Below, in pieces: positions 896 to 61,937 of a DNA stretch of 64,000 bases. The notes beneath the pieces are model-generated. The model had not been told where the DNA came from, searched no databases, and saw only the letters and a list, made by a program, of their open reading frames with translations. The DNA comes from Aquiflexum gelatinilyticum (GTDB lineage Bacteria > Bacteroidota > Bacteroidia > Cytophagales > Cyclobacteriaceae). Both the position numbers and the translations under genes were made by a program. The stretch spans positions 372,001 to 436,000 of the forward strand of contig NZ_JANSUY010000002.1 of NCBI RefSeq assembly GCF_024741135.1, read 5' to 3'. Every line of letters begins with the position of its first letter. Positions within the stretch are counted from its first letter, which is position 1.

Positions 896-927
896 GTCAA
901 CAGTCAACAGTCCATAGTCCACAGATC
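896..927 (+). repeat. Degenerate GTCCACAG-word repeat, copy a
   Basis: This block lies 20 nt after the ALDH stop codon and consists of overlapping words such as GTCAACAG, GTCCATAG and GTCCACAG. It belongs to a family seen at five other places in the window, always just downstream of a stop codon. Confidence 0.7.
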
Positions 928-1028: not shown

Positions 1029-2033
1029 ATGTCCACTAGAAGTACCTTCTCCTGTATAGACGCCCACACCTGTGGCAACCCTGTACGTGTTGTCTCAGGT
1101 GGTGTGCCTTTTTTGAAAGGTAACAACATGCTCGAAAAGCGTCAATATTTTTTGGATAAACTGGATTGGATAAGGAGAGGTCTGATGTTTGAACCACGGG
1201 GTCACGATATGATGTCAGGCTCCATGCTATTCCCACCCCATGACCCTGAAAATGACTTTGCGGTGCTTTTTATCGAGACCTCAGGTTGTCTTCCTATGTG
1301 TGGGCACGGGACCATCGGTACCATCACCATCGCCATTGAGGAAGGATTGATCCATCCAAAGACTCCGGGATTTTTGAGGATGGAGGCCCCGGCAGGATTG
1401 GTTTTGGTATCCTACAAACAGGAAGGCAAGAAAGTTAAATCCGTCAAACTCACCAATGTCAAAAGTTATCTTGCTGCCGAAAGTCTGGAGATCGAGACCG
1501 AAGAACTCGGAAAACTCATCGTGGATGTGGCTTATGGCGGCAACTTCTATTGCATAGTCGATCCGCAAAAAAATTTTCCTGGATTGGAGCATTTCAGGGC
1601 AGAGCAGTTGATCTCTATGGCTAGGAATCTCAGACAAAAAATGAATGAAACCTATGAATTTGTTCATCCTGAACATTCCCAAATCCGCGGTTTATCACAT
1701 GTGATGTGGACCGGAAAAACCCTTGATCCAACAAGTTCCGCAAGAAATGCGGTTTTCTACGGAGACAAAGCCATCGACCGCTCACCCTGCGGGACGGGCA
1801 CTTCGGCCAGGATGGCTCAGTGGTTTGCCAAAGGACTTTTGAAGCCCGGAGATGATTTTATTCATGAGAGTTTTATCGGGTCCAAATTTACAGGACGGAT
1901 AGAAGAAGTGACTGAGATCGGAGACAAACCCGCCATTGTTCCAAGTATCGAAGGATGGGCCAAGGTATATGGCTACAATACAATCATCTTGGATGATGAT
2001 GATCCTTATGTGCATGGATTTCAGGTAATCTGA
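1029..2033 (+). CDS. 4-hydroxyproline 2-epimerase (proline racemase family)
   Basis: The 334-residue product is a PLP-independent racemase of the proline racemase fold, which interconverts trans-4-hydroxy-L-proline and cis-4-hydroxy-D-proline using two cysteines as acid and base. Both are present: Cys91 in 'MCGHGTIG' and Cys254 in 'SPCGTGTSA'. A threonine at the second site would have indicated the dehydratase subfamily. The protein begins 'FSCIDAHTCGNPVRVV', as is usual for the family, which supports the ATG at 1029. It lies between a ketoglutarate semialdehyde dehydrogenase and an FAD amino-acid oxidase, which fits a hydroxyproline pathway; the cytoplasmic deaminase step is not in the window. 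Proline racemase activity cannot be excluded by sequence alone. Confidence 0.9.
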   Translation: MSTRSTFSCIDAHTCGNPVRVVSGGVPFLKGNNMLEKRQYFLDKLDWIRRGLMFEPRGHDMMSGSMLFPPHDPENDFAVLFIETSGCLPMCGHGTIGTITIAIEEGLIHPKTPGFLRMEAPAGLVLVSYKQEGKKVKSVKLTNVKSYLAAESLEIETEELGKLIVDVAYGGNFYCIVDPQKNFPGLEHFRAEQLISMARNLRQKMNETYEFVHPEHSQIRGLSHVMWTGKTLDPTSSARNAVFYGDKAIDRSPCGTGTSARMAQWFAKGLLKPGDDFIHESFIGSKFTGRIEEVTEIGDKPAIVPSIEGWAKVYGYNTIILDDDDPYVHGFQVI

Positions 2034-2035
2034 AA

Positions 2036-2095
2036 GAAGCGAGAAGCTAGAGGCGAGAACCTAGAACCGAGAGGCGAGAAGCGAAAAAGAAAGAA
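2036..2095 (+). repeat. Degenerate GCGAGAAGC-word repeat
   Basis: Starting two bases after the epimerase stop codon, the sequence repeats purine-rich words such as GCGAGAAGC, TAGAGGCGAGAA and CTAGAACCGAGA with small variations. It encodes nothing recognisable. Confidence 0.55.
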
Positions 2096-2202: not shown

Positions 2203-2237
2203 CAGTCTCATGTCTCACGTCTTTCATCTTACGTCTA
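2203..2237 (+). repeat. GTCTCATGTCTCACGTC-word repeat abutting a start codon
   Basis: This block of near-repeats (GTCTCATG, TCTCACG, TCTTTCATC, TTACGTC) ends one base before the ATG of the oxidase gene. A very similar block occurs at 23323-23364 upstream of guaB. Confidence 0.65.
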
Positions 2238-4048: not shown

Positions 4049-4571
4049 AAACCAGCTGCCAATTTTTTGCTTATGCTAGCTGTGGGTGCCGTGAGATTAA
4101 GACTAAAAGGAGAAAGGGATGTTTACGAAGATTTGGGTGCCACGCCCTTGAAAAGGATAGGGATACATGTTCTTATGTCTTCTCGTTTGATGAATATCCC
4201 AATGGATTTCAAATCAAAATCATTTCAGATTGACAATGGGGCGTAGCCCTTCAATCTTTGTAATTACCAAGTCAATATCGGTACCAAGAGGGGCGTAGCC
4301 CTGAAATCATAATGCCTATGGCAAATACGCATGAATGATAGATCTCAGGGCTACGCCCCTTTCGTTCATTTACCATGTCAATTTGCTACGAAGATTTAAG
4401 GGCTACGCCCCACCTATTTATGTATGCTATGATGCCAGCAAAATGATAACTTGATATAATTCTTGGCCAAACACTGAGAAGCCCGATACTTCCGACTTCC
4501 GACTTTGGTCTTCCGTCCTGTTTGAAGTATAATTTAACCTTACTGGAAAAGAAGCCGATAACCACTTAATC
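4049..4571. other. Non-coding 523-nt gap with REP-like repeats
   Basis: No plausible gene is seen on either strand. The gap contains five copies of a GGGCGTAGCCC-type word: four in the nested inverted repeat at 4238-4411 and one degraded copy near 4124-4147 (TACGAAGATTTGGGTGCCA followed by CGCCC). The remainder is AT-rich sequence without a recognisable signal. Confidence 0.7.
4238..4411. repeat. Nested inverted repeat with four GGGGCGTAGCCCT words (REP/MITE-like)
   Basis: Two copies of GGGGCGTAGCCCT (4238-4250 and 4290-4302) are followed by two inverted copies (4347-4360 and 4399-4411). The inner arms 4289-4308 and 4341-4360 are complementary at 19 of 20 positions. The outer arms, about 4238-4261 and 4388-4411, also match closely. 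Each word is itself a small palindrome (GGGC-GTA-GCCC). The whole could fold into a long double-layered hairpin around a centre near 4325. No transposase is nearby, so it is best described as a non-autonomous REP/BIME- or MITE-like element. Confidence 0.8.
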
Positions 4572-5309
4572 CTATTCCTCAAAAACCTGATCTTCTGCAT
4601 CGATAATAATCCTGATAAACCGGATGATATGGTCTATTTCCTCCCATGAAAAACCCAGATTTCCCTGAGAGTGGGCAAGTGCATCGCGCAACTGTCCGAT
4701 GTCATTCATCATCTTGACAAAGCGGTCTCTGCTATACTCCGGATCAAATTTTTTGAAGCGTAGGTTTTTGGAAAAGATTGAACCCAAGTCACCAAACTGC
4801 AGGCATTGCACCAAATCTATTTCTTCCTTCCTTCCCTTTTTCCACTCATAAAGTGACCGGGCACTGTTGAGCCGGTTTTCGGAAATGCTTTCTTCCCAAT
4901 GCGGCAGGTATTTGCGGATCAGTTCCTTCAGGTGGGTTTCCAATAGGCTGATCAATCCAAAAAACCCAATCCTGAGCGGAATCTTGTCGAGGTCAGTCCG
5001 GGTGACGATGTGTGCGATTTTCCCATCTTCTTCAATGAAATACCGTCTCTTTTCGATAAGTTTTCGGAAAGCAAATAATAGAGGCGTATCTGACGGCAAA
5101 ATATCTTCCGAAGCGATAGGAACCGGCCTCTCGTCATCCAAGTCAAACTTCATCAAAACCCCATTCACGTCCACAACGGCCGATTGGAAATTCCGTTTTT
5201 CCATTTCTTCCCTGTAATTTTCAATTCCAAAAACAAGCAGATCTTCAGCGATGGGCATGACATTGATCTGTTCTTCAAATAGCAGGCGGAGCCGGTCAAG
5301 GGATTTCAT
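4572..5309 (-). CDS. CBS-domain protein with HEPN-like C-terminal region
   Basis: The 245-residue product is not a named gene. Residues about 15-110 look like a CBS pair: 'SAVVDVNGVLMKFD' and 'RRYFIEEDGKIAHIVTRTDL' have the beta-strand/turn pattern of CBS halves, which usually bind adenine nucleotides. The remainder is helical and includes 'GQLRDALAHSQ' (about 206-215), in which R208 and H213 form an R-x4-H spacing like that of HEPN RNases. It is divergent from the KOW-like gene at 5391, with 81 nt between the starts. A nucleotide-sensing RNA-binding or RNA-cutting role is an inference; HEPN domains may also be inactive. Confidence 0.6.
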   Translation of the reverse strand: MKSLDRLRLLFEEQINVMPIAEDLLVFGIENYREEMEKRNFQSAVVDVNGVLMKFDLDDERPVPIASEDILPSDTPLLFAFRKLIEKRRYFIEEDGKIAHIVTRTDLDKIPLRIGFFGLISLLETHLKELIRKYLPHWEESISENRLNSARSLYEWKKGRKEEIDLVQCLQFGDLGSIFSKNLRFKKFDPEYSRDRFVKMMNDIGQLRDALAHSQGNLGFSWEEIDHIIRFIRIIIDAEDQVFEE

Positions 5310-7408: not shown

Positions 7409-7442
7409 AAAATAGCTACCCGATATCTCAGGTAGCTATTTC
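7409..7442 (-). terminator. Hairpin terminator after the M14 operon
   Basis: AAATAGCTACC (7410-7420) and GGTAGCTATTT (7431-7441) form a perfect 11-bp stem with a 10-nt loop. On the minus strand the stem is followed by a T-rich run. It lies about 50 nt beyond the stop of the M14 gene at 7494. Confidence 0.7.
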
Positions 7443-7448
7443 TATTTG

Positions 7449-7491
7449 GTGACTATCCACCGTGGACCGTAGACCGTCAACTGTGGACAAT
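7449..7491 (-). repeat. Degenerate GTCCACAG-word repeat, copy b
   Basis: On the minus strand, two to three bases after the M14 stop codon, the words GTCCACAG, GACGGTC, ACGGTCCACGG and TGGATAGTC follow one another. The order closely resembles copy e at 54350-54392. Confidence 0.75.
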
Positions 7492-19226: not shown

Positions 19227-19257
19227 AACTGTCGACTGCTGCCTGTAAACTGTAGAC
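19227..19257 (-). repeat. Degenerate GTCCACAG-word repeat, copy c
   Basis: On the minus strand, eight bases after the prfA stop codon, the words GTCTACAG, TTTACAGG and CAGTCGACAG follow one another. This is a more diverged member of the family seen at 896, 7449, 39018, 54350 and 61906. Confidence 0.6.
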
Positions 19258-19264
19258 TTTTTCC

Positions 19265-23322: not shown

Positions 23323-23364
23323 AATCTTAAGTCTTCCATCTCATGTCTCACGTCTCACATCTCC
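23323..23364 (+). repeat. GTCTCACGTCTCACATC-word repeat
   Basis: Near-repeats AAGTCTTCCATC, TCATGTCTCACG and TCTCACATCTCC lie upstream of the guaB promoter and closely resemble 2203-2237. Confidence 0.65.
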
Positions 23365-23387
23365 GAATTAATTTATTTTCAAACCGA

Positions 23388-39013: not shown

Positions 39014-39017
39014 AAAT

Positions 39018-39046
39018 AGCCCACAGGTTACAGTCCACAGCAATGG
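39018..39046 (+). repeat. Degenerate GTCCACAG-word repeat, copy d
   Basis: Four bases after the hflX stop codon, the words GCCCACAG, GTTACAG and GTCCACAGCAATGG follow one another. The border word ACAGCAAT is shared with copies e and f. Confidence 0.65.
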
Positions 39047-54349: not shown

Positions 54350-54392
54350 TAGTCCACAGTCCACGGTCGATAGTCCATAGCCACAGCAATTG
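54350..54392 (+). repeat. Degenerate GTCCACAG-word repeat, copy e
   Basis: Starting directly after the isomerase stop codon, the words GTCCACAG, TCCACGGTC, GATAGTCCATAG and CCACAGCAATTGG follow one another. It is the longest clear member of the family and shares its order with copy b (7449-7491). Confidence 0.8.
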
Positions 54393-54531
54393 GACTTCAC
54401 TCCGAGTGTTAGAATGGTTAATGGCAAGAATGAGTAGCTATGTAAAAAACTGTGGGCTTAGGATAATATCCATGAATATCAAATATCTATTAATATCCAT
54501 TTAGAAAAATTCGGTTCATTCATTTAATGAC

Positions 54532-61905: not shown

Positions 61906-61937
61906 AATTGCTGTTGACCGTGGTCTGTGGTCAATTA
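61906..61937 (-). repeat. Degenerate GTCCACAG-word repeat, copy f
   Basis: Read on the minus strand, about 50 nt after the DoxX stop codon, the words GACCACAGACCACGGTC and AACAGCAATTG follow one another. The border ACAGCAAT is shared with copies d and e. It is in the sense orientation relative to the DoxX gene. Confidence 0.65.

Follow-up and report, generated by a model that had tools for sequence, protein, structure and literature searches.

Gene-end heptad arrays in Aquiflexum gelatinilyticum and their likely kinship with elements carrying S23-family four-helix-bundle genes

Many bacterial genomes carry heptamer repeats between their genes, and several such systems have been described. In Xanthomonas and Nostoc, GGGAATC and GGGGA(C/T)T units are intergenic and lie at most 50 bp from a gene boundary, in sense after a stop codon or antisense before a start codon; they sit nearer their 5' neighbour, occur in inverted pairs and mostly form arrays of four units (Rehm et al. 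2015, PMC4692102). Beggiatoaceae, cyanobacteria and five Bacteroidetes have TAACTGA repeats that are likewise intergenic heptads and mostly point towards start codons; they were proposed as sites of translational regulation, no binding protein being identified (MacGregor 2015, PMC4679880). In Coxiella, heptameric GACAGAT repeats precede the S23 gene of the intervening sequence within the 23S rRNA gene (PMC4990558). Here we analyze a 64,000-nt stretch of Aquiflexum gelatinilyticum DNA (assembly GCF_024741135.1, contig NZ_JANSUY010000002.1, positions 372,001 to 436,000; G000:C12:372001-436000 in our numbering), hereafter the window, in which six tandem heptad arrays lie beside gene ends, and relate them to small elements elsewhere in the genome in which a four-helix-bundle gene of the S23 family stands between inverted arrays.

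All six blocks listed for this DNA in an earlier note, made from the sequence alone, are present; they had been taken for a family of degenerate words and are better described as tandem arrays of 7-nt units with the consensus RGTCMAY. With up to one mismatch, RGTCMAYRGTCMAY matches the window eight times where 0.71 matches are expected, a count reached by none of 100 shuffles. In a scan with a circular seven-column profile, its weights set by hand from motif matches in the genome, the six blocks score 21.2-49.4 bits, everything else reported at most 18.5 and four shuffles at most 19.7. The adjoining genes are those named previously, namely Aldedh, Peptidase_M14, prfA (PCRF and RF-1), an HflX-like GTPase (GTP-bdg_N/M, MMR_HSR1), a xylose-isomerase-like TIM barrel and DoxX, and the border word ACAGCAAT is indeed common to arrays d, e and f.

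Array a, 896..924, + strand: GTCAACAGTCAACAGTCCATAGTCCACAG, 19 nt 3' of the aldehyde dehydrogenase stop; 44.3 bits
Array b, 7451..7488, - strand: 5 nt 3' of the M14 peptidase stop; 45.0 bits
Array c, 19228..19258, - strand: 6 nt 3' of the prfA stop; 26.2 bits
Array d, 39016..39040, + strand: 2 nt 3' of the HflX-like GTPase stop; 21.2 bits
Array e, 54350..54386, + strand: 1 nt 3' of the stop of the isomerase-like gene; 49.4 bits
Array f, 61911..61930, - strand: 57 nt 3' of the DoxX stop; 25.7 bits

Across the whole genome (G000; 4,999,169 bp in 57 contigs), RGTCNAYRGTCNAYRG gives 61 matches against 3 for a backward control, and array-motif matches number 80, 72, 49 and 90 in the sampled congeners G001-G004. 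The other 93 genomes mostly hold 0-3, the higher counts being 98 in G091, 31 in G030, 12 each in G021, G024 and G061, 10 in G018 and 8 in G063, while the 10 matches of G076 stand against 11 for its control. Placement was tested on stretches of G000, G002 and G004 (the latter two taken from among the matches listed), with gene ends given by uncurated longest-open-reading-frame calls; 77 of 89 arrays were usable, 9 of the 12 dropped ones lying inside long open-reading-frame calls and 3 having no usable neighbours. Thirty-six of the 77 begin in sense no more than 25 nt past a stop codon, where 2000 simulations give a mean of 7.2 and never exceed 17, and only one lies antisense in that position (null 6.8); four stand antisense just before a start codon, none in sense there, and the remaining 36 are more than 25 nt off. 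Placement with respect to stop codons is thus non-random on the stretches of these three genomes, in keeping with the earlier note, whose further claim of a single orientation throughout holds for 6 of 6 arrays in the window and fails genome-wide, the upstream neighbour in tandem-gene regions being on the same strand in 27 cases and on the opposite one in 17. A better rule is that the leading edge of an array tends to face the nearest gene boundary, and 70 of the 77 arrays are nearer their 5' neighbour.

That position rule is already in print, although the earlier note knew of no described system that fits: like the arrays here, the Xanthomonas and Nostoc heptamers are tandem intergenic 7-nt units nearer their 5' neighbour, and their four units amount to five unit starts if a partial fifth follows (PMC4692102). 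They have been read as G-quadruplexes generally unassociated with mobile elements, whereas RGTCMAY holds no G-tract, and the available text of that report (PMC4692102) links them to no S23-family gene, although the solved S23-family protein 2gsc is from Xanthomonas. What goes beyond the published rule is the association with S23-family genes.

The complete form lies outside the window, at G000:C20:5021-5519, where a four-helix-bundle gene (PF05635/TIGR02436) stands between two inverted arrays of 7-nt units; on the strand running into the element, each array comprises about five (AG N5) units. By eye, the neighbours of the element are a carboxyltransferase and a peptidase of M42 type. The six arrays of the window have no PF05635/TIGR02436 gene. 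Copies of PF05635 number 8-13 per genome in the five congeners and 0 in 14 control genomes, and the S23 family is present in 157 of the 198 genomes sampled from the phylum. Among the first 30 loci the best inverted matches between flanks score 14.5-31.5 and are for the most part heptadic. The heptad is particular to the gene type: AGTACYA, AAGACAY, GAGAYRT, GACCGAT, GACGGAA, AGGTRAG, GGTTATT and others, with L111 and L113 weak and L107-L109 of 8 nt. We then assembled a named set, the best 80 of 572 confirmed loci and not a random sample, which spans Bacteroidota, Acidobacteriota, Chloroflexota, Bacillota, Planctomycetota, Pseudomonadota and others. Period 7 (at least 17/24) is found in 89 of its 154 flanks as opposed to 3 of 137 far flanks, only period 14 besides exceeds 0.10, and in 52 of 74 cases the two flanks of one gene match each other, inverted, better than 95% of mismatched pairs do. 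Plasmid S23 loci, mostly annotated 'four helix bundle protein' or 'S23 ribosomal protein' and including copies inside operons (nrdB/nrdA, cas6/cas4 twice, cas10/cmr3), show period 7 in 18 of 28 flanks. In a sample of the phylum the count is 22 of 60, including one run of N, and lag 8 is seen in 0.183. Together, these data show that S23-family genes are commonly flanked by inverted heptad arrays, both in this genus and in other phyla.

The Coxiella intervening sequence (PMC4990558) resembles the complete elements in its S23 gene, its inverted terminal repeats and its variable number of AG-holding tandem heptamers before the start codon, but it lies in the 23S rRNA gene. The elements here have gene-less relatives, and all copies whose neighbours were read are situated between protein genes. 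The complement of the TAACTGA repeats holds AGTTATC, close to the GGTTATT/AGTTATT type here, and their orientation towards start codons is that of our reverse arrays, although their units are exact and not degenerate (PMC4679880). No link between S23 genes and intergenic heptads was found in the open literature, which is weak evidence of absence as subscription papers and preprints lay outside the search. On cyanobacterial plasmids, the four-helix-bundle genes L289, L292 and L295 lie between cas genes, with flanking heptads at the first two and not at L295. Eighteen four-helix-bundle genes in cas loci have been counted among CRISPR-associated functions (PMC3936711), and the heptads at L289 and L292 suggest insertion in cas loci instead of a CRISPR function.

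A second regularity concerns the number of units. Units were counted on the outward-facing strand, as the longest run of AG dinucleotides spaced exactly 7 nt apart: among 156 flanks of the 80 named loci, 73 have none to three, 18 four, 41 five, 15 six, 5 seven and 4 more. Runs of at least four occur in 83 of the 156 flanks, in 12 on the opposite strand and in 4 of 137 far flanks, and AG is the dinucleotide with the most such runs (83 flanks, the next being GT with 48). Four further sets were counted (25 clustered of 49 genus loci, 14 plasmid loci, 30 of the phylum and 23 loci of other genomes), and five is again the commonest value among runs of at least four in the genus, phylum and other-genome sets (12, 13 and 9 flanks, respectively). 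In solo arrays, counted for AG or GG (n=80), three units occur 9 times, four 23, five 29 and six 13. Flanks without a 7-nt run give five AG at 8-nt spacing in 14 cases and six in 5, a weaker result in which the dinucleotide is the best of seven. Five is thus the favoured count among AG runs at exact 7-nt spacing. The predicted fold of the S23-family protein in turn matches 2gsc and 2rld, which have five chains each. Avd, a pentamer encoded by diversity-generating retroelements (4dwl, 8ube, 8ub7), has a like fold with a TM score of 0.75-0.80 for the chains listed and a Foldseek probability of 1.00 but an E value of at least 0.07; it differs in being about 10% identical and in acting with a reverse transcriptase.

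Heptad type follows protein clade, and RGTCMAY belongs to one clade. Mantel tests of heptad similarity against protein identity, restricted to loci with a clear array in both flanks (49 of the 80 named, 34 of the 49 genus loci), give r 0.276 for the named set (47 rows after clustering, 0/2000 permutations), 0.263 overall (67 rows, 0/2000) and 0.176 within the genus (20 rows, 62/2000). The AGTC-flanked genes L100, L104, L112, L309 and L311 require 2 changes on a 153-row tree, as few as which none of 500 shuffles gives, a clustering that is favoured by L104 and L112 being near-copies; a single supported group (97/89) unites the five with L313 and the GACCGAT and GACGGAA types, the bootstrap being unsettled. 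As a check of prediction, six other genomes with RGTCMAY matches were searched for a flanked gene, and 46 of the 50 listed gene matches were looked at. G024 holds the S23-family gene L311 with RGTCMAY arrays on both sides, and G018 holds L309 with a long array downstream and upstream fragments by eye, the threshold being reached on one side only; the two proteins are 50-55% identical to those of L104, L112 and L100, and L309 is nearest L313 of G021 (61%), a member of the same clade whose leader, by eye, contains AGTC words. In G061 an AGTCGGC-type flank accompanies a gene of another clade. We also note a compound array at 1977-2212 of L309, 3' of the S23-family gene, where AGTC heptads and a CTTTTA-like spacer are repeated about 10 times.

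Array occupancy differs between sister species. In G000 and G003 the AGTC-type gene at the carboxyltransferase/M42-peptidase junction is broken by an in-frame stop; G002 has an intact but diverged version, and G001 and G004 bear another S23 element (GGTTATT) at this place. In G024, which belongs to another genus, L311 apparently lies at the same junction (by eye). Downstream of hflX, the array is of AGTC type in G000 and, by eye, GACGGAA-like in G001 and G002; other sequence is found in G003 and G004, and G005 lacks an array and has hardly any gap. The prfA 3' end bears an array in all five congeners, in G004 with about 170 nt and a GACGGAA-like array (by eye) between stop codon and array, while array e has a counterpart in all five and the site of array b also bears an array in G004; unit number varies between orthologues. 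A candidate clean empty site for array a in G002 proved uninformative, the downstream gene being different. These differences in occupancy lend support to the earlier suggestion of a mobile element at gene ends and point to movement of the arrays. Spread by reverse transcription is not supported, a reverse transcriptase having been detected in only one of the five congeners, and no transposase-like open reading frame was seen by eye in five array regions, with no family search for Y1 made. REP sequences are short dispersed intergenic palindromic units with a GTAG/GGAG-type head, and RAYT is a Y1 transposase; the elements here share with REP/RAYT a rarer gene-bearing form flanked by inverted copies, but pair tandem heptads (RNAalifold 0.0 on 34 copies) with a four-helix-bundle protein instead of a palindromic unit with a Y1 transposase.

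In light of these results, we lean towards the reading that the six arrays are gene-less relatives of AGTC-type S23 elements and candidate binding sites of pentameric rings, with one AG per subunit. Arrays and S23 elements would then form one superfamily of small elements, in which solo arrays would descend from gene-bearing ones and would lodge, without a gene, at intergenic edges, most often a few nucleotides after a stop codon. The S23-family pentamer would bind the AG form of the array as a single strand, either RNA or single-stranded DNA, with one AG per protomer, and this predicted binding may be what the copies have in common. The AG-form end points out of the element, at the gene boundary, so that an array that follows a stop codon is in sense and is read into the 3' untranslated region (UTR), and a read-through transcript from the upstream gene would carry (AGN5)5 right after the stop codon. 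Seven nucleotides are out of phase with 10.5 bp and thus a poor fit to B-DNA, whereas seven nucleotides per subunit and five subunits would suit a single strand laid round a ring; TRAP embodies a comparable idea of a single strand round a ring protein. To our knowledge, no catalysis is known for the S23-family protein.

By eye, arrays lie between stop codon and terminator at several genes, array b and the M14 peptidase among them. Solo arrays consist of four to five heptads and in many copies, at dispersed sites, are followed by a conserved tail of about 65 nt (aligned from the best 34 and the best 24 copies).

Intrinsic terminator (hairpin, T-rich tail), 7409..7441, - strand: downstream of array b; by eye, coordinates hand-counted
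Conserved tail of the dispersed unit, 54381..54440, + strand: consensus ACAATTGAACTTCAATCCGAGTTTTAAATGGTTAG; nhmmer E=2.7e-10, this copy having been in the training set

No conserved RNA structure of array plus tail is found (RNAalifold 0.0 on 34 aligned copies), and Rfam gives no match over the window at gathering thresholds. The arrays have no stem and T-tract of their own, as the earlier note had observed, and the ordinary terminator after block b is separate. Its proposal of a 3'-UTR role is strengthened as regards RNA-protein binding, both by the arrays between stop and terminator and by gene-bearing relatives that encode a protein with five-chain homologues, and is weakened as regards termination, since no consensus structure exists and separate terminators follow some arrays. 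Two further candidates were set aside. The tail, seen by eye as a piece of the S23 element leader, was dropped when an nhmmer profile of 30 tail rows found none in L100, L104 and L112; and S23-gene remnants were sought within nine inverted array pairs, which yielded only the two genes already known, the rest being at chance level (E at least 0.076 where any). At 54470-54500, as also on C27 and at several G004 and G002 loci, a second dispersed repeat of AATATCCATTAATATC-like words is seen by eye, often after a heptad element. At G000:C13:11460-11507, forward and reverse AGTC arrays with a short loop form a hairpin by eye, and G002 has two arrays 471 nt apart at apparently the same place.

Several results weigh against this pentamer-site reading. 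The strongest is that no AGTC-type S23 gene was detected in G001 and G004, despite 80 and 90 array matches; the gene was detected in only three of the five congeners, and is intact only in G002. Related clades (GACCGAT, GACGGAA) might serve the arrays there, or the arrays might be relics. Nor was an RGTCMAY-flanked gene found among the matches looked at in G021, G030 and G091. In S23-gene flanks nhmmer detects no solo tail, so that the descent of solo arrays from gene-bearing elements is something we infer rather than observe. At threshold, 42% of named-set flanks and 63% of phylum-sample flanks are without period 7, and the S23-family types L107-L109, L113, L201 and L202 have a flanking unit of 8 rather than 7 nt. 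As to the count, runs of one to three AG are common in every set, and runs of one or two outnumber five in the genus, phylum and other-genome sets; the plasmid set (28 flanks) has no peak at five (four in 4, five in 3, six in 2, eight in 2, two longer), and RG counts in the six window blocks range from 3 to 7. Finally, the prfA site shows no clear core constraint, 24 of 72 core positions differing against 25 of 52 degenerate ones (first 150 nt of the G004 flank excluded).

The prfA result bears equally on the best-surviving alternative, which we judge unlikely: that the arrays serve the host as regulatory sites in 3' UTRs, where one of its ordinary RNA-binding proteins would control termination or the decay of the mRNA, with only an indirect link to S23-family genes. 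Sites of this kind would accord with the persistence of arrays where the cognate gene is undetected and with core conservation elsewhere. At the isomerase site, not selected for carrying the pattern, 3 of 80 core cells differ among five species, compared with 16 of 68 degenerate and 45 of 197 tail cells (Fisher p 0.0004 and 0.00004, cells sharing ancestry), and across 14 orthologous pairs, chosen because both members carry the pattern, 9 of 247 core and 43 of 189 degenerate positions differ. This account leaves aside that in three congeners and in two other genera this heptad also stands beside an S23-family gene, that sister species swap heptad type at the same gene end (second type by eye), and that the genes beside arrays are of mixed function.

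It is rather improbable that the arrays are in the first place RNA-processing modules, in which the stems of inverted arrays would be cut by RNase III like those of 23S rRNA intervening sequences, leaving half-stems behind as the solo arrays. The Coxiella intervening sequence does have a 28-bp terminal stem cut by RNase III (PMC4990558), and the hairpin on G000:C13 has the expected form; only nine forward-reverse pairs under 900 nt occur among the scored arrays, leaving most solo arrays without such a partner, RNAalifold finds no structure, and the clade-specific heptads go unexplained. Such processing is compatible with pentamer binding as an added step.

Simple-sequence repeats arising by replication slippage, with period 7 favoured by the polymerase (PMC4679880 ascribes this view to Mrazek 2007), are already disfavoured and of small probability. 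Among long repeats, heptanucleotides are reported to outnumber every other class in most of the surveyed genomes rich in repeats (PMC4679880), and unit number does differ between orthologues, but slippage predicts no sense placement after stop codons (36 arrays against 1 antisense), nor the inverted pairs at S23-family genes, the tail shared by dispersed sites or the favoured five. A G-quadruplex reading, although the Xanthomonas and Nostoc heptamers so interpreted share the position rule and the inverted pairs (PMC4692102) and some S23-gene flanks on cyanobacterial plasmids are G-rich, is refuted as a general explanation by RGTCMAY and most heptads here, which have no G-tracts while RGTCMAY arrays obey the same rule, and is scarcely credible for the present arrays.

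The window also holds heptad arrays of other types. A lag-7 scan finds seven period-7 stretches, all outside genes, where five shuffles give 0-2; blocks a, b and e are among the seven, with c, d and f under the scan threshold, and each stretch resembles the heptad of some S23-gene type in the genus (correlation 0.85-0.92, no null computed).

GAGAAGC-type array, 2031..2095, + strand: directly 3' of the proline racemase stop; correlation 0.92 with L092/L095 flanks, resembling a four-helix-bundle element type of the genus
AGACRTG-type array, 2203..2236, - strand: antisense, 5' of the next start codon; correlation 0.90 with L089 flanks
GACGGAA-type array, 4485..4519, - strand: 3' of the stop of gene 4572-5309(-); correlation 0.85 with L106 flanks
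AGACRTG-type array, 23331..23369, - strand: antisense, 5' of the IMPDH start; correlation 0.87 with L089/L090 flanks

The first two share one intergenic region with a different heptad type at each end, forward after the stop codon and reverse before the next start. An rnf-like operon (by eye) at G000:C27:10355-12051 and G004:C3:697263-698974 has many arrays in both orientations, in two successive gaps and in both species.

More tentatively than for the six arrays, we propose that S23-family four-helix-bundle proteins are pentameric rings that may read (AG N5)x5, or N6 in some clades, in single strands, with the variable bases set by clade, and that phylum-crossing elements may have been built on this code. 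The cyanobacterial, Xanthomonas, Beggiatoaceae and rRNA-intervening-sequence heptamers could then all be its traces, set at the ends of genes and thereby forming portable protein-binding sites in host mRNAs. Two old puzzles meet here, namely the function of the S23 or intervening-sequence protein and the reason why intergenic heptamer repeats are so widespread. If the repeats are cognate sites of the S23 protein, both could be put to the test by a single binding assay for each pair of protein and array, and many of these pairs can already be seen in sequence; the favoured five, combined with varying heptads, would give an unusual natural series on how ring proteins read spaced single-stranded sites.
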